Of a stretch of DNA of 61,304 bases, positions 26,127 through 46,041 are shown piece by piece. The stretch spans positions 1 through 61,304 of the forward strand of contig JAGXGS010000075.1 of assembly GCA_024636585.1 (NCBI GenBank), given 5' to 3'. The translations under genes and the position numbers were made by a program. The notes under the pieces are model-generated. The model was not told the origin of the DNA and made no database searches. It saw only the letters and a list, made by a program, of their open reading frames with translations. Origin of the DNA: Thiogranum sp. GTDB lineage: Bacteria > Pseudomonadota > Gammaproteobacteria > DSM-19610. Positions within the stretch are counted from its first letter, which is position 1. Every line of letters starts with the position of its first letter.

Positions 26127-26693
26127 TTACTCCACGCCCCGGGCACGCAGGAATCCGCTGTACTGCTGATCGGTGCCGTTGATGTGGCTGATCAGCCAGT
26201 CCTTAAGAAAATCCAGTGCATGCTGCATGGCGTCTTCCTGGTTTTCTTCGTACTCGGCGAGCACGGCTTCCACCTTGCGTATCATTTTCAGGTGTTGCGC
26301 CTTGTGTGATTCGAAATCAGGATAGTCATGCGCTTCCATCAGCCCTTCTTCGTAACTGAAATGCGTCTTTGTGTAATTGACGAGCTCGTCCAGCGCCTCG
26401 CGTTCAAATTCCTCACCCGTTGAATAGTCAATCGCAGTCTGTAGCTGATTGATCAGATTCACCAGTTTTCTGTGTTGCCGGTCAATGGACTCGATGCCCA
26501 CGTTGTAGTCGTTTTTCCATTCCATGAAACGCTTGTCAGACATTTTTCTGTGAATGAAGGGAATTATTACGAGCGCGGCTACCAGTAACCAGGTCAGCGG
26601 ATTGGCCGGACCTGCCATAAGCGCCAGTATGACCGCGGTGAGGAGGGTCAGGATAAGCAGTGAAACGCCAAACATATTCAGGTGTTGATTCAT
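26127..26693 (-). CDS. Membrane-anchored bacteriohemerythrin
   Basis: 188 residues from the second in-frame ATG (26693), which has AAGGG about 9 bases upstream. Two N-terminal transmembrane segments are followed by a hemerythrin domain with iron ligands in the pattern IDRQHRKLVNLIN (His), KTHFSYEEGLM (His and Glu), ESHKAQHLKMI (His, His) and DWLISHINGTDQQY (His, Asp). Binds O2, or possibly NO, at a di-iron site on the cytoplasmic face. It is inserted between nirN and nirE on the opposite strand. It shares the intergenic FNR/DNR box with nirE, so it may be induced with denitrification. Confidence 0.88.
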   Translation of the reverse strand: MNQHLNMFGVSLLILTLLTAVILALMAGPANPLTWLLVAALVIIPFIHRKMSDKRFMEWKNDYNVGIESIDRQHRKLVNLINQLQTAIDYSTGEEFEREALDELVNYTKTHFSYEEGLMEAHDYPDFESHKAQHLKMIRKVEAVLAEYEENQEDAMQHALDFLKDWLISHINGTDQQYSGFLRARGVE

Positions 26694-26762
26694 GGGATGC
26701 ATCCCTTGTTATCGATAACTGTGGCCGGCGCTATTTTAACACTGCATACGTGCATTTGACGC

Positions 26763-26805
26763 TTGATATACATCAAGGACAGTGGAAAAGCGCGCACTCG
26801 ATAAT
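26763..26805. promoter_or_regulatory. FNR/DNR box and -10 between hemerythrin and nirE
   Basis: TTGATATACATCAA (26763-26776) is a perfect TTGAT-N4-ATCAA site. GATAAT at 26800-26805 follows at nearly the same spacing as in the nirS promoter, giving a probable class II activated start near 26812 for nirE and the d1 operon. The palindrome lies about 70 bases upstream of the divergent hemerythrin start and could also act on it. Confidence 0.8.
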
Positions 26806-33241: not shown

Positions 33242-33309
33242 GGCCTGTGCTTATTACACAGACCTGGCGGAAATGTCAAAAGCATCCAGCGTGGAGGGAG
33301 ATAGCGGAT

Positions 33310-34707
33310 ATGCGTGACGAGTTTGTGTTACCGATACCTCGCGACAGCCGCCGTGCACTTGCCGGTGGCTGGCTGTGGCTGGGGCTGCTGGCGCTTTCGG
33401 CCTCGGGCATTTTTTCTCTGCTGCTGGTGTTGTCGCGCACACCCTATGTCCAGGATGTGATTCCATGGATCGATTTTTTCCATACCGCGCTGGTCGTGCA
33501 TGTAGACCTGTCGGTGCTGGTATGGTTTCTGGCCTTCGGCGGCGTATTGTGGAGCCTGAATTCGACAACGCGCTTCATGAAGCTGGGCTGGCTGGCGCTG
33601 GGTTTTGCCGGCCTTGGTGCGGCGGCGATGGTGGTGGCACCGTTCATCGGACCCGGAAATCCTCTGGTGAGCAATTACATTCCGGTGTTGCAGACACCCC
33701 TGTTCGCGCTGGCCTTGTTGTTCTTTGGTTTCGGTATCACGTTGCTCATCCTGCGCAGCATGACCGCACAGTCCCGGGTCGGGCAGCAGCTGGAAGGCGT
33801 CGGCGCCCTGCGTTTCGGATTGAACACGGCCGCCGTGGCGTCCGCTATGGCTGTGCTGGCGTTTGTGTGGTCGTATCTGGCGCTGCCGGAGTTTCTGAGC
33901 GGGAAGCCTTATTACGAGCTGCTGTTCTGGGGCGGCGGCCATATGTTGCAGTTCACCTATACGCTATTGATGCTGGTAGCCTGGCTATGGCTTGCGTCAG
34001 CATCCGGAGTCAGCCTGCCACTGACGCCACGCGTGGTATTACTGCTGTTTTTCCTCGGCCTGGTGACGGTGTTTATGGCACCGCTGATTTACTATGGCCA
34101 CGCCATTACCTCGGTTGAACACATCAAATTATTTACCTGGCTGATGCGTTACGGCGGCAGCCTGGCGACCTTGCCGCTGGCTCTGGCGATACTCTATGGG
34201 CTGCTGCGCAGCCCTGCATCGCCGCGCGCACAGGCACCGCTACGCGCAGCCTTGCTGACGTCGATGCTGCTGTTCGGTCTTGGCGGGGTCGTAGGTTTTC
34301 TGATTCAGGGCAGCAATGTCACCATTCCCGCCCACTATCACGGCTCAATCGTAGGCGTCACGCTGGCGTTCATGGGACTGACTTACGATTTGCTGCCACG
34401 CATGGGTTATGCACATCCGGCCATGCGAGCTGCGCAAATCCAGTCCTGGGTGTATGGCGGTGGTCAGCTGTTGCACGTGCTGGGCCTGGTCTGGTCGGGC
34501 GGTTATGGTGTGCAGCGCAAGGTTGCTGGTACCGCCCAGGCACTGGATGGTGTGGAAAAAATAGTCGCCATGGGACTCATGGGACTGGGCGGACTGATCG
34601 CGATCATTGGCGGCCTGATGTTCCTGGTCATTGTGTTTATGGCAATGGCAAAAGGCCGGCGTCAGCAGACACACGCACCCGGTACCATTGCGGCGCAACA
34701 AGGCTGA
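33310..34707 (+). CDS. Heme-copper oxidase superfamily subunit I-like protein lacking the active-site Tyr
   Basis: 465 residues, about 12 membrane helices. Candidate ligands: His64 in helix II (LVVHVDLSVL), His211 in helix VI (GGGHMLQF), and His342/His344 in helix X (PAHYHGSIVG). The residue four after His211, Tyr in O2 reductases, is Phe215. Helix VII has only one His (YYGHAIT, His264) where two are usual. So this is not a standard oxidase. NO-reductase-like subfamilies of the superfamily lack this Tyr; gNOR is one candidate, which I cannot confirm. GGAGGG precedes the ATG. Followed by a small membrane protein and an SCO gene. Confidence 0.75.
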   Translation: MRDEFVLPIPRDSRRALAGGWLWLGLLALSASGIFSLLLVLSRTPYVQDVIPWIDFFHTALVVHVDLSVLVWFLAFGGVLWSLNSTTRFMKLGWLALGFAGLGAAAMVVAPFIGPGNPLVSNYIPVLQTPLFALALLFFGFGITLLILRSMTAQSRVGQQLEGVGALRFGLNTAAVASAMAVLAFVWSYLALPEFLSGKPYYELLFWGGGHMLQFTYTLLMLVAWLWLASASGVSLPLTPRVVLLLFFLGLVTVFMAPLIYYGHAITSVEHIKLFTWLMRYGGSLATLPLALAILYGLLRSPASPRAQAPLRAALLTSMLLFGLGGVVGFLIQGSNVTIPAHYHGSIVGVTLAFMGLTYDLLPRMGYAHPAMRAAQIQSWVYGGGQLLHVLGLVWSGGYGVQRKVAGTAQALDGVEKIVAMGLMGLGGLIAIIGGLMFLVIVFMAMAKGRRQQTHAPGTIAAQQG

Positions 34708-36870: not shown

Positions 36871-36951
36871 ATTGATGACTAACGAGTTTCATGGCCCCGG
36901 CGTACTCATGTCGGGACCGCGTCATTGCAGTATCAACATTGGAGAGAGCCC

Positions 36952-37404
36952 ATGTTAGGTTTCAAAAGTTCCGCTACCCAGGACAGTTCCCACTGCCTGT
37001 TGAAAGAAGTCGGGCTGGCACAGCTCAACAAGCAACACCTGCGGCTGGCGAGCTATGCCGTCGAATTCAGCCAGATCATCGAGGAGTTGTCATCGCGTGA
37101 GCCAAGTACCGCGGACTGGCGGCGTATCGACGCGCTGTTCAGCAAGATCATGCGTTTTGTGGCAACGCATTTTGCGGAGGAAGAAGCCCTGATGGTTGAA
37201 CATGGTTATCCCGGCTATGAAGCGCATAAGAAGCTGCATGATAAATTCACCGGAGATATGATCAAAATGCAGGGTGAGATCAATAACCGCAATATCAGGT
37301 TCAAGATGAAAATGAATTCGCTGCTGTGGGACTGGCTGTACAAACACATCAACGAGGTTGATTACCAGTACCGCGATTTCTTCCAGGCCAAAGGTTTGAG
37401 CTGA
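36952..37404 (+). CDS. Bacteriohemerythrin (soluble)
   Basis: 150 residues. ATG with GGAGAG upstream. Di-iron ligand pattern: LNKQHLRLASYAVE (His), ATHFAEEEALMVEHGYP (His, Glu), AHKKLHDKF (His, His) and WLYKHINEVDYQYRDFF (His, Asp). No membrane segment, so a cytoplasmic O2 (or NO) binding protein. It follows the unknown gene cluster and may have its own promoter in the 81-base gap; no FNR box was found there. Confidence 0.88.
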   Translation: MLGFKSSATQDSSHCLLKEVGLAQLNKQHLRLASYAVEFSQIIEELSSREPSTADWRRIDALFSKIMRFVATHFAEEEALMVEHGYPGYEAHKKLHDKFTGDMIKMQGEINNRNIRFKMKMNSLLWDWLYKHINEVDYQYRDFFQAKGLS

Positions 37405-37463: not shown

Positions 37464-38462
37464 TCACCGCCGCGGCAACACCTCCGCCAGTTCCTGGAGT
37501 GAGCCCAGGGATCGGGATTGCTGGTCTTGCGTATAGCGTCCGGAATGAAACGCCGGTTCGGAGATTGCATTTTCTGCTGGTCCGGAGATGGCAAAGTTCA
37601 GTTCACCATTGTTGCCGTCAATATCGTTGAAGTGGACCGTCGCACAACGCGCTGCAGACGACGAATCCGTACCGCAGGGCGCCAGATGATCCGGCCATAT
37701 CAGCATACTCTGGGATGGCAGTAGCGCGGCGAGCCAGTCTGTCAGAGCAGCGCCGCCAGATACTGACAGCGTTTTCAGCATCGCCGGATCCAGTTCGCGA
37801 AGGTCCCCGCTCAGCGTGTCGACATGCCAGAGCCCGCCGCTGTCCGACGTATGCACCTGCAATGTCTGTACGCCATTAAACGCCGCTGAGCTGGCAGTAA
37901 AGCTGACTTCTTTTGCGGCATGCACCTGAAGATCCGAGTAGCGGGGGGTGCGGTCACCTTCGAAATCCAGATACCGGCAGTCTGCGATGCCCTGTGGCGC
38001 GCAGGAGTCAGGCCGCTTCACAGCATCGATCATGGCTTTCGGCAGACGGGCAGGGTCCCAGCCGATGAAATGCCCGCAGGCATCGAAACTTATATTCAGC
38101 ACCTGCAGACTTGCCGCGAGAGTTCGCTGATCAAAAACCTGGTAATCACTTTTCATGCGCTCCGCAATTTCGGCGACGCTGTGGTTGGCGTTACTGCCGG
38201 CTTCGCCAAGAATGCGCCAGCCCTTGTCCTGCGGGTCAGCTGCAGGGAAATCCCGGGTGTTCTCCGAACGGCACATGACCACAGCTGTTTCTCCCAGCTG
38301 GCTGAAGGGAATGTTGCGGTAGTAGCGCACGACTTTCAGCTGCAGCTGTGGTCCGTCATAAAACAGGTGTTCATCGAGTCGCTCGTTCGGCTGACCGCAT
38401 CCGGCCAGCAACAGGTACAGGACGCTGATCAGGCAGGCCCCGGGCAAAACGCTTATATTCAT
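37464..38462 (-). CDS. Hypothetical lipoprotein, last gene of cytochrome b fusion operon
   Basis: 332 residues from the ATG at 38462, which overlaps the SirB2 stop (ATGA). Lipobox LLLAGC (Cys22). The body contains six or more Cys (e.g. FDACGHF, DSCAPQGIADCRY, APCGTDSSSAARCATV), consistent with a disulfide-rich periplasmic or outer-membrane protein. No fold recognised. Fourth in the run cytochrome b fusion - unknown - SirB2 - lipoprotein. Confidence 0.65.
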   Translation of the reverse strand: MNISVLPGACLISVLYLLLAGCGQPNERLDEHLFYDGPQLQLKVVRYYRNIPFSQLGETAVVMCRSENTRDFPAADPQDKGWRILGEAGSNANHSVAEIAERMKSDYQVFDQRTLAASLQVLNISFDACGHFIGWDPARLPKAMIDAVKRPDSCAPQGIADCRYLDFEGDRTPRYSDLQVHAAKEVSFTASSAAFNGVQTLQVHTSDSGGLWHVDTLSGDLRELDPAMLKTLSVSGGAALTDWLAALLPSQSMLIWPDHLAPCGTDSSSAARCATVHFNDIDGNNGELNFAISGPAENAISEPAFHSGRYTQDQQSRSLGSLQELAEVLPRR

Positions 38463-38836
38463 GTCAGCACCAGCGGATTTTTGGTTAAGGCGACAGCGAC
38501 GATATAGAAAAAGCACAGCAACGCTGCAATCCAGCTGCCGATCCGTATGCGTTTCGTTCTGCCATAGGTAAGCGCCAGCATACCAAAGCCTATATAAGCT
38601 ACCAGCGCCAGGACCTTGGCCGTAAGCCAATGGTGTACAAACGGATATTGATACATGCTGACTGCGAGGTAGATCGCGCTGCCCAGTAATACCGTATCGA
38701 TGACCGGCGGGATACGCCGGGTCCACTTGCGGTGTAGCAGATCCGACTCCATGATCATCCAGATGCCACGGATGACGAACAGGATAAAGGTAAGCACCAC
38801 CGTTGTGACATGGACGTATTTGGCGAACATTATCAT
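38459..38836 (-). CDS. SirB2 family membrane protein
   Basis: 125 residues, four transmembrane helices. KYVHVTTVVLTFILFVIRG, TRRIPPVIDTVLLGSAIYLA and HWLTAKVLALVAYIGFGMLAL match the SirB2 family (Pfam SirB), an integral membrane family of unknown role that includes heme-synthesis-linked neighbours in other genomes. Conserved His near both ends of helix I and in helix III could bind heme; this is inference. ATGA overlaps join it to the genes on both sides. Confidence 0.82.
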   Translation of the reverse strand: MIMFAKYVHVTTVVLTFILFVIRGIWMIMESDLLHRKWTRRIPPVIDTVLLGSAIYLAVSMYQYPFVHHWLTAKVLALVAYIGFGMLALTYGRTKRIRIGSWIAALLCFFYIVAVALTKNPLVLT

Positions 38837-39336
38837 TGAATGAAAAATTTACCGGTATCGGAATTGAAGTTGATCACCAGCCGCTGTGAGGGCTTCAGCG
38901 TGACCGTCTCTTCGTGCACATGCGTGGGACCTTCGACGCGCACATTGTCGTTCATATGTATCACCAGCCGATGCTCGCCGGCCCTGACTGTTGCGCTGCG
39001 GTAGAAGTCGACTCCCAGGTCATTATACAGGCCCGGTGCGGTCAGGACTTCATCGATGACCGGTTCAGCGTCGATCAGCAGGTCGACCGACACTGGCGAG
39101 CGTTCGCGTGGACATTCCATGGGCGTCCGCATATTTGGCGGCAACGCAGCCAGTTCCTCGGCGGAGAGGGTTCGGCAGGGCTCGCTGCGTTCGCCGGCGT
39201 GCGCGAAAGCCACGGTAACAACGGCCTGTCCGGGCATCAGCAGGCGGTACGGCGGCGCGGCAGAGAAGTACCAGACCAGCAGCATGAACAGTGCGAAATT
39301 GAGTGCCTGCAGAGGAAAACGACTAAGCCTGGGCAT
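38833..39336 (-). CDS. Hypothetical membrane-anchored protein linked to cytochrome b fusion
   Basis: 167 residues from the ATG at 39336, inside the end of the upstream gene (14-base overlap). One N-terminal hydrophobic segment, then a periplasmic domain with two Cys-containing stretches (EPCRTLSAEEL, PMECPRERSP) and beta-rich C-terminus (HVHEETVTLKPSQRLVINF). Not recognised. Tight coupling makes it a likely subunit or maturation partner of the fusion protein. Confidence 0.65.
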   Translation of the reverse strand: MPRLSRFPLQALNFALFMLLVWYFSAAPPYRLLMPGQAVVTVAFAHAGERSEPCRTLSAEELAALPPNMRTPMECPRERSPVSVDLLIDAEPVIDEVLTAPGLYNDLGVDFYRSATVRAGEHRLVIHMNDNVRVEGPTHVHEETVTLKPSQRLVINFNSDTGKFFIQ

Positions 39337-40870
39337 TGGGGGCCTCGCGCGCTGAATCCAGTGCCGCGACAGTTTCCCGGAATGCCACGAGCTCCCGGTC
39401 CAGCCTGGCGGCATCAGTGACGGCAGCTCTGAATACCCGTATCCGATCGCGCTCCGCACGTTGCCGGAGGATCGGCTTGCGGAGTCCCGAAAAGCGCTGA
39501 TCCAGCCAGATGTTCCCGTAACGGTAATAACAGTCGCCGCTGCGACAGCCGGTGATCAGTACGCCGTCAGTACCCTGTTTCAACGCATATTCCACCAGTG
39601 TCGGTGGTAACATGCCGGCACAGAACAGGCTCAGCACCGCGGTATCCGGAGTCTGCAGTGCAGCGACATCGACCGCATTGTTGCAGCCGAACACCATGAT
39701 TTTCGTGTTGCCGGCCAGTTGCGCCAGTGCTGTGTCGACGCGATTGCGGATTTCGTCGATCGGGTACTGGGGCATATCGATACCGGTTTCCAGGGTCTTC
39801 TGCGAGCGCCTGAACGGATTCGATGAGTGGCAGGAGCCGACGCAGATACCGCAGGCCGCACATTGATCAGGATTCACCACGACTTCGCTCGGCCAGCGCG
39901 CGCCGTCGCTGCGCGCCTGCACGGTGATAGCATCGAAAGGACAGTCCTGCGCGCACTGGCCACAGCCGTTGCATTGATCCAGGTGTACCTCGGCGGCCGG
40001 CCCGGTTTTTTTCGGCGGCAGCCACGGCAGGATCATCAGCAGCAGCGTAACGCCGGTGGTGAGCATCCACACCTGACCGGCAGTCCACTTGTCGAGCAAC
40101 GGATAAATGTTGAGATAGAACCAGTCCAGGTTCAGCACCATGGGCACCTTGTCCAGATCAGCAGGGCCATGACTGGTGGCGGGCGCCAGCAGCGATAACA
40201 CCAGCAACGCCAGCAGGCTTCCGATCGCCAGGCCGCGGGGCGCGGTGACTTCGACATGGGAGAGCCGCTTGACATGTATCCACAGGGCTATCACCAGCAG
40301 TACCGGTTGTCCCAGCAGATGCAGAAATGCCATCAGGGTGAACAGCCGGTCCGTGAGCTGGCCGGACAGGAAGTCGCGCGCCATGGAGCCCGACACCACC
40401 GGCAGTGTATCCATCAGTTGCGCGGAATAGATTGCCACATACAGACCCAGTTCATCCCATACCAGCCAGTACCCGGTAATGCCCAGGGTGATCACGAACC
40501 ACAGGGTCGGCACGCCGGTGAACCAGGAAAACCAGCGGATGCCGCGATAACGATCAAGTGCGAATTCACGGAACATGTGCAGCAGGATCGTGATCACCGC
40601 GGCATCCGATGCATAGCGGTGCAGGCTGCGCATGACTCCGCCTATATACCACTGCTCGTGCGTCAGATACTCCACCGACGCATACGCACCGGCGGTACTG
40701 GTGTCAAAAAAAACGAACAGGTAGATGCCGCTGACCAGCACCACCCAGAAGAAAAAAAATGTCAGGGTGCCCAGGTGATAGAGGGGATTCCAGCCTGACC
40801 CGAAGGATACATTGAACCAGTCTTCCAGCAGCAGATAGCTGCGTTTAATGGGATTTACGCGTGCGTTCAC
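39323..40870 (-). CDS. Cytochrome b6-like / 2x[4Fe-4S] / MvhD-type fusion protein
   Basis: 515 residues, three modules. Residues 1-285 form a cytochrome b membrane domain with heme His pairs 84/98 and 184/199, the 14- and 15-residue spacing of cytochrome b6. Residues 295-355 hold two 4Fe-4S sites, CNGCGQCAQDCP and CAACGICVGSC. Residues 388-480 resemble MvhD/FrhD, the small iron-sulfur subunit of methyl-viologen-type hydrogenase complexes, with Cys396, Cys417, Cys442 and Cys447 (GCRSGDCYYRYGN). The protein could link the quinone pool to a cytoplasmic partner through a 2Fe-2S. An FNR/DNR-type box upstream suggests anaerobic induction. Partner and reaction unknown. Confidence 0.85.
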   Translation of the reverse strand: MNARVNPIKRSYLLLEDWFNVSFGSGWNPLYHLGTLTFFFFWVVLVSGIYLFVFFDTSTAGAYASVEYLTHEQWYIGGVMRSLHRYASDAAVITILLHMFREFALDRYRGIRWFSWFTGVPTLWFVITLGITGYWLVWDELGLYVAIYSAQLMDTLPVVSGSMARDFLSGQLTDRLFTLMAFLHLLGQPVLLVIALWIHVKRLSHVEVTAPRGLAIGSLLALLVLSLLAPATSHGPADLDKVPMVLNLDWFYLNIYPLLDKWTAGQVWMLTTGVTLLLMILPWLPPKKTGPAAEVHLDQCNGCGQCAQDCPFDAITVQARSDGARWPSEVVVNPDQCAACGICVGSCHSSNPFRRSQKTLETGIDMPQYPIDEIRNRVDTALAQLAGNTKIMVFGCNNAVDVAALQTPDTAVLSLFCAGMLPPTLVEYALKQGTDGVLITGCRSGDCYYRYGNIWLDQRFSGLRKPILRQRAERDRIRVFRAAVTDAARLDRELVAFRETVAALDSAREAPNAQA

Positions 40871-41009: not shown

Positions 41010-41023
41010 TTGATATACCTCAA
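41010..41023 (-). promoter_or_regulatory. FNR/DNR box upstream of the cytochrome b fusion gene
   Basis: TTGATATACCTCAA matches TTGAT-N4-ATCAA at 9 of 10 fixed positions. It overlaps the stop codon of the upstream SCO gene (41020-41022) and lies 140 bases before the fusion start, so it should drive only that operon. No convincing -10 was found at the class II distance. Confidence 0.65.
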
Positions 41024-41871
41024 GTGCTGGCGGGGTGCCGGCGGTGGCGGGTTTCAATGATGATGAAGGCAACGCCGGACAGGATAATGAGCGCGCCGAT
41101 CGCAATGCCGATAAACAGTGAGTAGTCGAAATGGTAGGCATCGCGGGCCGGATCATAGGTGGTGCAGAAGAAGCGCACCTTGTCCACCAGTTCCGAGAGC
41201 AGCGTCTGGTCTGGTTTGGGGCGCCCCAGCAGCAGATCCTTCAGGGGTTCGACCAGCAGCGGTGTATCGAACACTTCGCCGTAGACCTGCCGGTAAACGC
41301 GGCCCTCGGCATCGATCACGCTGGCCTGGGTGATATGGTCGAAACCATTGGGTGAAGCGAAATACTCAAAGCCGAGTTCCTCACTCAGGGCATTGACGGT
41401 GTCCGGGCTGGCGCTGAGCAAATACCATCCGCGGTCATCGATGCCCTGTTTTCTGGCGAAACTCTGCATTGCCTGGGGACTGTCGTTGTAGGCATCGAAG
41501 CCGAGCACCACGACATTGAACGCATCGTCACCGAATGCATCCTGGGCCTTGTCGACTACCGTGGCGAGGTGCCGGGTGGTCATCGGACAGATCTGGTAAC
41601 AACTGGTATAGATGAGGCTCACGATCAGCGGCTTGCCGCGCAGGGAGTCGAGCGCTATCGCACGGCCCTGGTGATCGGTGAGTGAATGATTGCCGAGCAC
41701 TCCGCCGATCGCGGCCTGACTGCGCTCCAATGCGCTCTTGTACTGGAAGGCCTGGACTGAATCGGCGGACCGCAGTTCGCCGGACACTACCGGTTCGGCG
41801 TTCGCCGGCAGGCACAGTGCCATATACGCCAGGCATAAAAGCATGGCGGGAAAACGGCTGGAATCCGTCAT
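41020..41871 (-). CDS. SCO1/SenC family protein with C-terminal membrane anchor
   Basis: 283 residues from the ATG at 41871. Signal peptide about residues 1-25 (ending ANA), thioredoxin-fold SCO domain with SLIYTSCYQICPM (copper CXXXC), an expected His in FDHITQASVID, and a C-terminal transmembrane helix (about 250-272), an unusual topology compared with the N-anchored SCO at 35039. Downstream of the CuA subunit and ctaB genes, so it probably assembles CuA in the 44604 subunit. Confidence 0.88.
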   Translation of the reverse strand: MTDSSRFPAMLLCLAYMALCLPANAEPVVSGELRSADSVQAFQYKSALERSQAAIGGVLGNHSLTDHQGRAIALDSLRGKPLIVSLIYTSCYQICPMTTRHLATVVDKAQDAFGDDAFNVVVLGFDAYNDSPQAMQSFARKQGIDDRGWYLLSASPDTVNALSEELGFEYFASPNGFDHITQASVIDAEGRVYRQVYGEVFDTPLLVEPLKDLLLGRPKPDQTLLSELVDKVRFFCTTYDPARDAYHFDYSLFIGIAIGALIILSGVAFIIIETRHRRHPAST

Positions 41872-41872
41872 G

Positions 41873-42808
41873 TCAGCCAACCAGCGCGGCGTCGAGCAGG
41901 GCGAACAGCAATAGCAGCAACAGCTGGGCCAGCGACGCAAAAAAACTGCGCATCCCGTTTTTAGTGGATGGTTCTCGTACCAGTCGCAGTGCGTGATGAA
42001 TAAAATAACCGCCACCCGCCAGCGCACCGACCAGATAGATCCAGCCCAACCCGAAGAAGAAGGGCATGATGGAGGCGCCCACCAGCAGCAGGGTGTGCGC
42101 CAGTACCGCCCATGCGGCGACCTGATTACCCGCCGTCACCGGCAACATCGGAACGCCGACCGCCGCATAATCATCGCGGCGCGCGATCGCCAGACTCCAG
42201 AAGTGCGGCGGTGTCCACAGAAACAGAACGATGGCCAGCAGCACCGGCACCGCACCCAGTTGCGGATCGACTACCGCCGCGCCCGCGAGTACTGCAAAAC
42301 TTCCGGACGCACCGCCGATCACGATATTCATCGAGGTGCGGCGTTTCAGCCATACGGTATAAATCACTGCATAGAAGAAGGCTCCCATGAAAATGTAGAT
42401 CGCCGCTATGGTATTCAGCAGTAGAGCAGCCGCTCCGACGCCGCTGATGAGCAGCGCGCCGATCATCACCAGCCACCAGCGGTTATGTGTCAGGGCACCG
42501 GTAATGAAGGGCCGGTCGTGAGTACGCCGCATACGCGCGTCGATATCGGTTTCGTAATACTGGTTGAACGCGCCCGCGGCACCGGCTGCCATCAATACGG
42601 TCAGCGCCAGCACCAGCACCTGCCAGGCCGGGACTGCCGGTCCTGGCGTAACCACCAGTGTCACCACGGAAGTGGCTGCCATGACAATGCCGATGCGCAG
42701 TTTCATGAGGTTTGAAAGCTGCTGTAGTCGCTGCAACCAGACGGACTGTTTCCACGGCCGCACTGAGTTGCGACAGGGATTCGGAATAGTTTGTGTGCAA
42801 TTACGCAT
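41873..42808 (-). CDS. ctaB: Heme O synthase (protoheme IX farnesyltransferase)
   Basis: 311 residues from the ATG at 42808, with AGGTG upstream (a GTG at 42817 is an alternative). UbiA-type prenyltransferase with eight to nine helices; the first Asp-rich motif NQYYETDIDARMRRT and the second LFLWTPPHFWSLAIARRDDY are diagnostic of CyoE/CtaB. It attaches a farnesyl group to heme b, giving heme O, the substrate of CtaA. Located between the heme-copper subunit I and SCO genes, typical of an oxidase-type assembly cluster. Confidence 0.93.
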   Translation of the reverse strand: MRNCTQTIPNPCRNSVRPWKQSVWLQRLQQLSNLMKLRIGIVMAATSVVTLVVTPGPAVPAWQVLVLALTVLMAAGAAGAFNQYYETDIDARMRRTHDRPFITGALTHNRWWLVMIGALLISGVGAAALLLNTIAAIYIFMGAFFYAVIYTVWLKRRTSMNIVIGGASGSFAVLAGAAVVDPQLGAVPVLLAIVLFLWTPPHFWSLAIARRDDYAAVGVPMLPVTAGNQVAAWAVLAHTLLLVGASIMPFFFGLGWIYLVGALAGGGYFIHHALRLVREPSTKNGMRSFFASLAQLLLLLLFALLDAALVG

Positions 42809-42821
42809 GTTTTTCACCTGG

Positions 42822-42872: not shown

Positions 42873-44597
42873 CTAGCTTAGTGGCCAGACCGAGGACAGG
42901 TACTTCCAGTTGATGAAGTAGTACACGACGAATGACACCAGCAGCAGCATTGCCAGAATAAACGTCCCGGGCGCTTCAAAGCCCGCCGAGCCGTGTTCTT
43001 CGACTGCTGCCGCCATCGGCAGAATCTCGGGTTCTGCATTGTAGGCTTCCGGTGCCAGTGGCACGCCGAAGCTCTGTAGCAGACCGGCGGATGCATCGAG
43101 CTTCTTGCCGACCAGCAGTGAGCCCACTGTGATCAACAGGAAGGCGCCACCGGCGATTACCGCCAGCACCGCGCCAATGCCGGCGATACCCATCATGGTG
43201 TAGGCCATGCCCGAATACTCGAAGCTGAGCGCTGCACCGGTGAAATCCATGTCCCAGTGACGGCGCGATACGCCCAGGGTGCCGGCACCCATCATGAACA
43301 GGATCAGAATGGTCATGCCGGCGCCGAACAGATACGGCTGCCACTTCGCGAGCGTCGGCAGAATCATCTGGCGCCGGAACAGTACCGGAATCAACAGATA
43401 GGTCAGGCCCATGAAGGTCAGGGTTGTACCCACGGCCACTGTGGCATGGAAATGCGCCGGAACATAAATGGTATTGTGGATGATCAGGTTGATCTGCTCG
43501 GTCCCCATTACCACACCGGTGATGCCACCGATGAATCCGAAAATGACGATCGAGATAGCAACCGATGAAAAGGTCGGATTACCCCAGGGTGCTTTGCGCA
43601 ACCATTCGAACATGCCGCGGTTGTAGCCTTTCTCGCGCTGCGCGACTTCCATCGAACCGGGCACTGTCAGGCCATGAATCAGACTGGCAAGCACTGCCAG
43701 GTACATTGCGTAACTGGTGTTGAAGATCTTCCATTCTGCGCTGATGCCCGGGTCTACGAGGATGTGATGGGCAGAAGCCAGTTGCAGGAACAGGATGTAC
43801 AGCAGGAATGCGAAGCGGCTGACTTTCTCCGACATCGGACGCGCGCCGAGCAGCAGGCCGCCGACCAGATACCAGATCGACACATGTGCGACAACATTTA
43901 TCTGCTGTGAGGAATGCCCCATGGCCCACCAGATGATCCGGTACATCGAAGGATCGATATGCGCGATGTAACCGATCGACCAGAGGTAGGTCGGCACCAG
44001 GATGATGGCACCACTGGCGATGGTGAATACCGCAATAATAGCGGCGGTCATGGCACCGAAGGTGACCAGCGGAATCGAACCCTCGTAGGTGTTTTCATTT
44101 TTGGCTATGACGAGCGTGCCGAAGAATACGAAGCACCCGATCAGGGCGCCTACCGCAAACAGAATCAGACCGAGGTAGAAACTCGGCGCTGCCTGCATCG
44201 GTACATAGGACGTCATCATGACACTGGAATTGCCCTGGAATATCGCCACGTTGGTGGTGATCGCCCCGATAACCATCAGCGCGAAACCCAGCCAGGCCCA
44301 GCGCGGAGCGGCCAGTCGACATCGCAACAGCGTCGATGAGGCAAAATACAGCACCGCAATTTCGAAGAAAATAATCCAGAACAACAGAGCGTCTACGCCG
44401 TGCGCTGTCAGATACATATAGAACTGGTCGGCGGGCAACAGGTGCACCGCAGGCCAGCGGGTCAGCGCCACCCCGAGGGCGAGCAGGCCGGCCACCAGCA
44501 GCGACACCGCTGCGGCAACCGCGTTCACCTTCATGAGGCTTTCCGCGTTCTTGTCGAAAAACAGGCCCGAATCGGGGCAGAGTCTAAAGTTACCCAT
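42873..44597 (-). CDS. Heme-copper oxidase-type subunit I with Gln in place of the active-site Tyr (NO reductase candidate)
   Basis: 574 residues, 12-14 helices. All six canonical His are seen: His66 (TAHGVDALLF, helix II), His228 (helix VI), His277/His278 (ASAHHILVD, helix VII), His382/His384 (PAHFHATV, helix X). Helix VI reads AMGHSSQQINV, so the residue four after His228 is Gln232, where O2-reducing enzymes have the cross-linked Tyr (HPEVY). Loss of this Tyr is a hallmark of NO-reducing members (sNOR, eNOR and relatives). With a CuA subunit beside it and ctaA/ctaB nearby, a heme A- and CuA-containing NO reductase is the best guess. GGAG precedes the start. Confidence 0.85.
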   Translation of the reverse strand: MGNFRLCPDSGLFFDKNAESLMKVNAVAAAVSLLVAGLLALGVALTRWPAVHLLPADQFYMYLTAHGVDALLFWIIFFEIAVLYFASSTLLRCRLAAPRWAWLGFALMVIGAITTNVAIFQGNSSVMMTSYVPMQAAPSFYLGLILFAVGALIGCFVFFGTLVIAKNENTYEGSIPLVTFGAMTAAIIAVFTIASGAIILVPTYLWSIGYIAHIDPSMYRIIWWAMGHSSQQINVVAHVSIWYLVGGLLLGARPMSEKVSRFAFLLYILFLQLASAHHILVDPGISAEWKIFNTSYAMYLAVLASLIHGLTVPGSMEVAQREKGYNRGMFEWLRKAPWGNPTFSSVAISIVIFGFIGGITGVVMGTEQINLIIHNTIYVPAHFHATVAVGTTLTFMGLTYLLIPVLFRRQMILPTLAKWQPYLFGAGMTILILFMMGAGTLGVSRRHWDMDFTGAALSFEYSGMAYTMMGIAGIGAVLAVIAGGAFLLITVGSLLVGKKLDASAGLLQSFGVPLAPEAYNAEPEILPMAAAVEEHGSAGFEAPGTFILAMLLLVSFVVYYFINWKYLSSVWPLS

Positions 44598-44603
44598 GTC
44601 TCA

Positions 44604-45146
44604 TCACTCCTTAACGTAGATTCTGCCGAGCATGGTGTGATGTCCGATGCCGCAGTATTCGTTACAGACCACCCCGTATTCACCCGCCACGTCGGGAGTG
44701 ATGTTCAACACCATTTCATAGCCGGGAACGACTTGCATGTTGATGTTGACGGGTTGCAGGGAAAAGCCGTGCTGCCAGTCCATAGAGGAGAGATGGAGAC
44801 GATAGGTTTTACCTTTTTCCAGTTCCAGGATAGGCCACCATTGCCACAGTCTGCCGAGCATGTAGATATCGCTGCCGGCGGGCGGTGCCACGACAGGAAT
44901 CTGCTGTTCGGTTTCGTGCCGCACCGTGTACTGGTCGATCATGGCCTGTACTTTGGGGCCGAACTGGGCCGGAGTCGTTTTGTAGGCTTCGGTGGACAGG
45001 TTCTGTTTTCCGTATACGTGCCAGTACGGCATCATGAAAAACATGATCAGGCACCAGACCAGCGCTATGGCGATCCAGACGATCTCCTGGCGGCCGACCG
45101 GCACCTTCCACCAGATACGCTGGGCGGGCGGTAGATATGAAGTCAT
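44604..45146 (-). CDS. CuA-containing subunit II of heme-copper enzyme
   Basis: 180 residues. One N-terminal transmembrane helix (about 20-40), then a cupredoxin domain. CuA ligands are complete: His126 (DWQHGFSL), Cys161 and Cys165 (CNEYCGIGHH), His169 and Met172. The domain is short, and the single-helix anchor resembles ba3-type or NorS subunits rather than two-helix aa3 subunit II. It accepts electrons from a c-type cytochrome or cupredoxin in the periplasm. A strong GGAGG ribosome-binding site precedes the ATG. Six bases separate it from subunit I. Confidence 0.9.
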   Translation of the reverse strand: MTSYLPPAQRIWWKVPVGRQEIVWIAIALVWCLIMFFMMPYWHVYGKQNLSTEAYKTTPAQFGPKVQAMIDQYTVRHETEQQIPVVAPPAGSDIYMLGRLWQWWPILELEKGKTYRLHLSSMDWQHGFSLQPVNINMQVVPGYEMVLNITPDVAGEYGVVCNEYCGIGHHTMLGRIYVKE

Positions 45147-45486: not shown

Positions 45487-45500
45487 TTGATCTATATCAA
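45487..45500. promoter_or_regulatory. FNR/DNR box between heme-copper cluster and hemerythrin
   Basis: TTGATCTATATCAA is a perfect TTGAT-N4-ATCAA palindrome. It lies 148 bases upstream of the minus-strand 54-residue subunit and 94 bases upstream of the plus-strand hemerythrin gene. Either or both could be targets. No clear class II -10 was found on either side. Confidence 0.75.
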
Positions 45501-45594
45501 TCGAGAAAATCCGGATCCGGCGCTCAGTACGCGTTAAGATTATCTGTCTGGCGCAGACATGAATTTGCGTCTGTTTATTGATCAGGGAGTATTC

Positions 45595-46041
45595 ATGCCA
45601 ACGATTAGCGAATTCTTCAGCGCACAGCACCGCAGCTGCGATGCATTGCTCGGAAAAATGGAAGCGGCCGTAGACCGTGATGACTGGCAGCAGGCGGAGA
45701 TCCTTTTTGACCAGGTGCGCGCGGAAACCCTGCAACATTTCGAGAACGAAGAACAGGGACTGTTTCCACTGTTCGAACAAGCAACCGGCATGCATCAGGG
45801 GCCGACCCAGGTGATGCGTAGCGAACACGCGGAACTGCGTGAACTCCTGCAGAGCCTCGGCGCGGCCATGCAGGCGCACGACCAGAATGCAGCGCTGGGC
45901 ACGGCGGAAACATTTTTTCTGTTTCTGCAGCAGCATAATGTCAAGGAAGAGCAGGTTCTCTATCCGATGGCCGACCAGGCCCTGCAGGATTCGCTATCGG
46001 CGTTGTCGGAGAAAGTGCCCGGTTTCGCAGCGGGCAGTTAG
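45595..46041 (+). CDS. Hemerythrin HHE domain protein
   Basis: 148 residues. CAGGGAG precedes the ATG. HHE-type pattern: SAQHRSCDALLG (His), LQHFENEEQGLFPLFE (His, Glu), RSEHAELRELL (His) and FLQQHNVKEEQVLYPM (His, Glu). Cytoplasmic; such proteins sit next to DUF2249 and NnrS-like permeases in many denitrifiers and may sense or scavenge NO or O2. Followed at 5 bases by the DUF2249 gene. Confidence 0.88.
   Translation: MPTISEFFSAQHRSCDALLGKMEAAVDRDDWQQAEILFDQVRAETLQHFENEEQGLFPLFEQATGMHQGPTQVMRSEHAELRELLQSLGAAMQAHDQNAALGTAETFFLFLQQHNVKEEQVLYPMADQALQDSLSALSEKVPGFAAGS

Follow-up and report, generated by a model that had tools for sequence, protein, structure and literature searches.

Heme-copper enzymes of the eNOR type make the greenhouse gas N2O and are often annotated as oxidases (PMC8756737), and the published mark by which they can be told apart is a Gln in subunit I replacing the cross-linked Tyr of the active site (PMC8756737). 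Other heme-copper enzymes are served by proteins such as CcoG, a Cu(II) reductase that carries two 4Fe-4S clusters and, in the periplasm, an Ig-like domain (PMC7558416), Cox11, in which a single membrane helix is joined to an Ig-like domain bearing two conserved Cys residues (PMC7558416), and CrpH, a heme membrane protein that supports heme-copper enzymes in overlap with CcoG (PMC13038864). In the text covered, no discussion was found of what eNOR needs beyond its two subunits. The present analysis concerns a contig of Thiogranum sp. (Gammaproteobacteria; assembly GCA_024636585.1, contig JAGXGS010000075.1, positions 1 to 61,304; the whole 61,304-nucleotide stretch is referred to as the window), in which a gene for a cytochrome b-ferredoxin-FlpD fusion protein, hereafter FUS, and the adjoining gene for a small membrane-anchored protein, hereafter p168, lie in one operon with the two eNOR subunits.

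FUS and eNOR were found to be nearly inseparable in inheritance, and FUS with p168 is likely an overlooked helper or electron supplier of eNOR. As the two genes are nearly always inherited with eNOR, they offer a genomic marker for separating eNOR operons from oxidase operons. The domain combination itself has already been tabulated (PMC8756737); its tie to eNOR is undiscussed in the literature covered. No discussion of a cytochrome b-FlpD protein together with eNOR was found in the literature searched, a search that did not cover the main eNOR paper and in which most of the papers listed were not opened.

The fusion protein and its operon

FUS is encoded by one uninterrupted open reading frame (ORF) of 515 aa with a GTG start (Table 1). 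An earlier, sequence-only reading of the window had described it as a b6-type diheme domain joined to two 4Fe-4S sites and an MvhD/FrhD-type domain, and this was borne out by matches above the curated Pfam cut-offs: residues 29-202 match Cytochrome_B (E 7e-18), residues 294-349 match Fer4 (E 1e-8) and Fer4_7, and residues 402-504 belong to the FlpD family (E 5e-17, 62.5 bits against a cut-off of 22.3). The tail (residues 292-506) aligns as a single unit with the end of HdrA2 (profile positions 571-773 of 777, E 1e-28; NCBIfam), a match that falls far short of the HdrA2 family cut-off. By sequence (PDB) and by fold (Foldseek), the cytochrome part resembles cytochrome b6 and the cytochrome b of bc1 complexes, and the tail resembles MvhD, an electron relay known chiefly from methanogens, where it normally links hydrogenase to heterodisulfide reductase. 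A split or assembly artefact was rejected, the fusion being present in 23 of the 25 genomes of the class that were queried. Identity with the selenite/tellurite cytochrome b ExtP was rejected as well (99.9 bits against an NCBIfam cut-off of 290), and FUS gave no FixG/CcoG match in Pfam.

The heme His residues H84, H98, H184 and H199 are invariant in alignments of 19 and of 25 FUS sequences, while the eight ferredoxin Cys and the FlpD Cys 396, 417, 442 and 447 are unvarying in the 19 sequences. Similar sequences were thinned out for the alignments of this analysis, which contain 18, 46 and 24 relatives. The ef loop of bc complexes bears the motif PEWY/PDWY. The corresponding motif of FUS is LDWF, kept in the relatives and reading PDWF in one of them; a quinol site at this loop is plausible on the strength of the motif, and the earlier description of the complex as quinone-linked is suggested by it only. 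In the FUS of the window the His residues of helix D are spaced as in cytochrome b6; in other relatives they stand one residue closer. A structure model of FUS has middling confidence (pLDDT 73.7), with the ef loop among its poor parts. If the termini are placed according to the topology of cytochrome b, the six helices would put the Fe-S tail in the cytoplasm.

FUS is the fifth gene of an operon on the minus strand, coxB-coxA-ctaB-sco-FUS-p168, which starts near position 45146. The sequence-only reading had listed FUS, an anchored Cys-containing protein (p168), SirB2 and a Cys-rich lipoprotein; these genes are there, but the operon is longer and begins with CuA and heme-copper subunits, a context that had been missed. 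The overlapping starts described in that reading were found, at 14 nt between FUS and p168 (given the p168 ATG at 39336) and 4 nt (ATGA) both between p168 and SirB2 and between SirB2 and the lipoprotein. In subunit I the motif GH[SP]SQQ[IV]N is present in 58 of 58 neighbourhood frames of 400-700 aa, the only lengths counted and the window's frame included; GH[SP]SQQIN also occurs in 19/19 loci of other classes (27 loci were examined in all, the other 8 belonging to the class itself and overlapping in part with the genes counted above). Because Gln takes the place of the active-site Tyr in all 58 frames, the neighbouring COX1 gene was assigned to eNOR and an oxygen reductase was rejected. Residues His126, Cys161, Glu163, Cys165, His169 and Met172 of subunit II, which we take to be the CuA ligands, are conserved in 93% or more of 54 sequences, and both marks of eNOR at the level of sequence, the Gln and a CuA-type subunit II, are found in the window.

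Table 1. Features of the eNOR operon and its surroundings in the window
Feature	Coordinates	Strand	Description	Basis
FUS	39323..40870	-	cytochrome b6-type diheme ~1-290, 2x[4Fe-4S] ferredoxin ~293-349, FlpD/MvhD-like ~390-505	Pfam/NCBIfam, alignments, PDB sequence matches, Foldseek
p168	38833..39336	-	167 aa from ATG at 39336; one membrane helix and beta-sandwich, taken as periplasmic	91-sequence alignment, AlphaFold2
eNOR subunit II	44604..45146	-	CuA type, conserved ligand-type residues	Pfam COX2 E 4e-4, slightly under cut-off
eNOR subunit I	42873..44597	-	heme-copper family, GHSSQQIN; Gln at oxidase Tyr place	Pfam COX1
ctaB/cyoE	41873..42817	-	heme O synthase	NCBIfam TIGR01473 above cut-off
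SCO1/SenC	41020..41925	-	copper chaperone, start approximate	Pfam
SirB2-family membrane protein	38459..38836	-	accessory; beside p168 only in Thiogranum-like relatives	Pfam
Putative lipoprotein	37464..38462	-	Cys-rich, accessory	no Pfam match
FNR/DNR-like box	41010..41023		TTGAT-N4-CTCAA, one mismatch; overlaps SCO stop codon, ~140 bp upstream of FUS	
FNR/DNR-like box	45487..45500		perfect TTGAT-N4-ATCAA; ~340 bp upstream of eNOR operon, 59 bp upstream of divergent hemerythrin-like gene	

The FNR/DNR-type box that the sequence-only reading had placed upstream of FUS is present (Table 1), and the window was found to hold seven boxes of this kind, allowing one mismatch, where 1.55 were expected; seven was reached in 0 of 100 shuffles. 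The proposed link to denitrification has strong support and can be narrowed down to eNOR, a nirS-type cluster, its genes tentatively named by inspection of the sequence, lying on the opposite strand of the same window. The genome, 83% complete, holds five heme-copper members by a PF00115 search, which by motif and neighbours (judged by eye) are one aa3 type, two cbb3 types, eNOR and a degenerate member in the window; these matches included no cNOR or qNOR. FUS is the only FlpD protein found in this genome, which also has a canonical bc1-type cytochrome b. Among the operon proteins Pfam matched no Rieske protein, cytochrome c1/f, hydrogenase or HdrA, the search for the last two not extending to the rest of the genome.

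Co-inheritance and gene neighbourhoods

The genome surveys were made within Pseudomonadota. Of 274 genomes of the class, 67 contain FlpD; from these matches, stand-alone frames of ~150 aa, frames of ~720-810 aa (which we take to be QmoB), a 514-aa frame of G214 contig C22 and a broken G056 frame were dropped. The fusion was found in 24 of the 274, namely the window's own genome and 23 of the 25 queried for the whole protein, the other two giving bc1-type or short matches only; the homologues are 41-83% identical, and a contig break splits the gene in G205 and G268. With eNOR called at E <=1e-90 in the class and at E <=1e-60 in other classes, subunit I is present in 23 class genomes, of which 22 have FUS (Fisher 4e-29 over the 274 genomes, relatedness ignored). 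The two FUS genomes below the eNOR threshold have a contig that ends inside subunit I (G259) or inside SCO (G215). A draw of 299 genomes from the phylum added 28 eNOR genomes belonging to other classes, and 27 of these also have FUS, the match in G329 crossing one stop codon. eNOR was found without FUS, which was not detected elsewhere in the genome either, in G264 of the class and G333 of another class; these are not clean exceptions because their contigs end ahead of the place of FUS, directly after subunit I and after SCO, respectively.

p168 was found in 26 of the 274 class genomes. After a chance-level match in G260 (E 7e-4) was dropped, the remaining 25 comprise all 24 FUS genomes plus G099, in which the contig breaks off next to p168, where FUS would be. 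A one-genome-per-species scan gave at least 576 stretches related to FUS at E 1e-3, of which the best 80 were kept and examined; they include a same-genome pair (L135 and L148) and a locus (L140) from a genome also in the genome survey. The match reaches the FlpD part in all 80. p168 adjoins FUS (<=300 bp) in 71 of the 75 loci that extend far enough downstream; SCO is the immediate neighbour of FUS in 54 of the 71 loci long enough to tell, and subunit I is no more than 4 kb away in 46 of the 60 that reach far enough upstream. Genes of nir type, recognised by matches to proteins of the window, occur in 31 of the 80. The search for this domain architecture and its neighbours, proposed with the sequence-only reading, found the fusion intact in many genomes. 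The three genes downstream of FUS, which that reading had treated as coupled, fared differently: p168 is the sole core gene, and SirB2 and the lipoprotein come after it in only 5 of 106 loci. A Defluviimonas record, one among 72,556, provides a plasmid FUS in a similar gene order; it is annotated by general names only, with the eNOR given as an oxidase.

The residues of p168 are numbered from one codon before the ATG, at 39339. Cys55 and Cys76 are present in 91/91 sequences, His47, Asn69, Met70 and Arg71 in 90/91 and His123 in 84/91; the conserved His, two Cys and Met could bind copper. The AlphaFold2 model consists of one helix and a beta-sandwich (pLDDT 96). No Pfam family was found for p168: 47 p168 proteins scanned to E 5 gave weak, chance-like matches only, none of them to FixG/CcoG or CtaG.

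Exchangeable modules and a proposed electron conduit

The two proteins can be joined and their parts exchanged. In G157 a single 682-aa frame encodes both FUS and p168; G268 belongs to that genus too, and its p168 is in frame with the FUS tail. Two genes of G156 (L075, 5672-8212 and 12650-14461) share 873 bp of identical cytochrome b DNA, the identity stopping abruptly at both sides; one continues into ferredoxin-FlpD and the other into flavodoxin, FAD- and NAD-binding domains (CPR type). A misjoin at the repeat could alter the pairing of upstream flanks and tails, but each tail continues the reading frame of the shared cytochrome, and the pair is a natural domain swap within one genome. G082 (L081) carries a normal FUS plus a paralogue whose tail combines 2Fe-2S, FAD- and NAD-binding domains (FNR type). 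Both variants sit inside the FUS tree (34 hand-chosen rows), the 2Fe-2S variant on a long branch and with its place unsure. On account of the tail swaps, the FUS-p168 fusion and an ORF listed in an appendix table as combining cytochrome b6 and FlpD with a cytochrome c domain (PMC8756737), the cytochrome b has the look of a hub on which the parts at either side of the membrane, cytoplasmic and periplasmic, can be exchanged. Tails of the NAD(P)H type suggest that electrons flow from the cytosol to the b hemes of the membrane, although such modules can reverse, and the exchange of ferredoxin-FlpD, CPR-type and FNR-type tails on one cytochrome b points to a modular wiring of cytosolic reductant to the membrane.

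The reading preferred here, with a probability of roughly 0.4, is that FUS and p168 constitute a membrane electron conduit dedicated to eNOR and most likely used in its maturation. Electrons from a cytosolic reductant would enter at a [2Fe-2S] site of FlpD, pass through the two [4Fe-4S] clusters on the cytoplasmic side and the two b hemes across the membrane and arrive at p168 on the periplasmic side, where they may keep copper, or the Cys residues of p168 and SCO, reduced while the CuA site and the active-site metals of eNOR are loaded, much as CcoG, Cox11 and CrpH may act for other heme-copper enzymes. Maturation is the best guess because ctaB and SCO adjoin, the tie to eNOR is strict and there is likeness to CcoG, Cox11 and CrpH; the usual gene order places FUS among assembly genes, and in L084 the gene after the FUS-p168 fusion looks by eye like the heme A synthase CtaA. 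The conduit as such is further backed by how closely FUS, p168 and eNOR are inherited together, by the FUS-p168 fusion and by the exchanged cytosolic tails. The unknown cytoplasmic partner invoked in the sequence-only reading still stands.

Several observations weigh against this proposal. A motif typical of quinol oxidation is kept in the ef loop, which would be superfluous in a pure copper reductase. Subunit I is missing within 4 kb in 14 of the 60 loci with enough upstream sequence: eight are Magnetococcales (five with a NirS-type match), two Thioploca/Thiotrichaceae and one Chromatiales, and three lack p168. FUS occurs without p168 in four loci (L143, L145, L148, L158), three of which form one clade inside the family in the 34-row tree, and one p168-less FUS has a multiheme c7-type cytochrome as neighbour; given this neighbour and the tabulated cytochrome c ORF, the periplasmic partner of FUS can be an electron carrier. 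Each NAD(P)H-tailed variant was seen in one genome only, and for the CPR-tailed paralogue the order of G156 offered one other genome, which lacks it. The likeness between CcoG and p168 is loose, as the copper on which CcoG acts is cytoplasmic and the text covered leaves the function of its Ig-like domain undecided (PMC13038864, PMC7558416). Homology of p168 to CtaG/Cox11 was rejected at an hhalign probability of 1.1% against the CtaG-like protein of the genome, a weak test with one sequence, and the best fold match, HGSNAT (E 5e-4, query TM 0.41), was taken to indicate no useful kinship.

The main rival reading makes FUS-p168 a turnover partner of eNOR, passing electrons from a cytosolic donor or quinol via p168 to CuA and bypassing bc1 and cytochrome c. 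Strict co-inheritance with eNOR, retention of the ef loop and the four heme His, c-type cytochromes adjoining or fused in relatives, and the possible copper ligands of p168 all agree with such a role, which is less probable than maturation: the genome has its own bc1-type cytochrome b, eNOR carries all the CuA-type ligands for taking electrons from cytochrome c in the ordinary way, the metal site of p168 is putative, and FUS-p168 stands on another contig or ~20 kb from eNOR in G310 and G329 of other classes, as it stands without a nearby subunit I in several of the Magnetococcales loci. That FUS and p168 are obligate eNOR components, a heme-b wire across the membrane that is fed by ferredoxin or NAD(P)H and passes electrons through p168 directly to eNOR, allowing the reduction of NO without bc1 and cytochrome c, is unlikely; if true, p168 would represent a novel type of periplasmic protein that carries a metal or thiols.

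In another alternative FUS would be a quinone oxidoreductase with only a loose tie to eNOR, exchanging electrons between the quinone pool and ferredoxin or NAD(P)H as donor in the cytosol; the model for it is the reduction of cytochrome b6f by ferredoxin or FNR during cyclic electron flow. The b6-type His spacing and the ef loop of the window FUS, the FNR- and CPR-type tails of the paralogues and the homology of the FUS tail to the end of HdrA2 are consistent with it, but it would leave the coincidence of eNOR and FUS across genomes and the near-constant adjacency of p168 unexplained, and the closer helix D His of other relatives do not fit; it is considered improbable. The layout of the sequence-only reading, with quinol oxidised by FUS and electrons leaving via FlpD to a cytosolic partner, appears the most improbable of all. 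The ef-loop motif would allow it, and FlpD in Hdr complexes can pass electrons either way; flow from a b heme to a ferredoxin-type cluster would be strongly uphill in redox potential, and the tails of the paralogues are of NAD(P)H-oxidising, if reversible, types. The sequence-only interpretation as a whole is partly supported, and maturation of eNOR is retained as the preferred role of the proposed conduit.

Neighbouring genes and relation to known systems

Other features of these loci are recorded here. In L145 (8216-9745) a cyclic-nucleotide-binding and rhodanese protein is encoded directly upstream of the p168-less FUS, with a similar gene in L148 and L158; L158, labelled Acidobacteriota, has the same neighbourhood and a FUS close to those of the gammaproteobacterial L145 and L148, and is possibly a mis-binned contig. 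Tandem FUS genes occur in L265 (7581-10997) and L266 (2368-5885), with p168 only after the second; the eNOR of G462 and G397, recorded together with these tandem genes, has just 51% identity to that of the window.

The putative lipoprotein of the window has a lipobox-like LAGC; its family gave no Pfam match, and the six members seen, one in the window and one in each of five relatives, all lie beside SirB2 and p168. At 33247-34707 on the plus strand lies a heme-copper subunit I-like gene (COX1 E 8e-11) whose product has conserved His85, 232, 363, 365 and 410 and lacks a conserved TM7 His pair and the active-site Tyr. The 274 class genomes include 30 with a homologue, and 20 of these also have FUS; in 19 of 61 loci a homologue lies no more than 2.5 kb downstream of FUS, and the product is possibly a degenerate heme-copper protein of denitrifiers. 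Three hemerythrin-like genes lie near the nir and eNOR clusters (36925-37404, 26127-26702 and 45559-46041; the family search covers the first only); such a gene comes after p168 in several relatives and, in Defluviimonas, after a hypothetical protein at the place of p168. A second perfect TTGAT-N4-ATCAA box (26763-26776) stands between a hemerythrin-like gene and a nirE-like gene.

Compared with described systems, the window enzyme shares with eNOR the Gln at the active-site Tyr position and a CuA/cupredoxin subunit II, while the portions of the eNOR papers covered name no cytochrome b-FlpD protein or p168 as a partner (PMC8756737, PMC10734462). With CcoG/RdxA/FixG the pair has in common two 4Fe-4S clusters, a membrane protein, an Ig-like periplasmic part (here p168, separate or fused) and an adjoining heme-copper gene; it differs in the diheme cytochrome b and FlpD of FUS and in the lack of a FixG/CcoG Pfam match in either protein. 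p168 recalls Cox11/CtaG in its single membrane helix with a beta-sandwich, its two conserved Cys and its place beside a heme-copper enzyme, but no sequence similarity between them was detected. The four heme His, the ef-loop motif and the match in sequence and fold relate FUS to the cytochrome b of b6f and bc1 complexes, from which it departs in having one predicted membrane helix after the ef loop and a cytosolic Fe-S tail, in an operon without a Rieske or cytochrome c1/f gene. The ferredoxin-FlpD tail, which also forms the C-terminus of QmoB, is shared as one unit with HdrA2, and three later FlpD Cys of FUS align with those of MvhD; the operon is without a hydrogenase or Hdr gene, and in FUS the flavin domain of HdrA is replaced by a cytochrome b.

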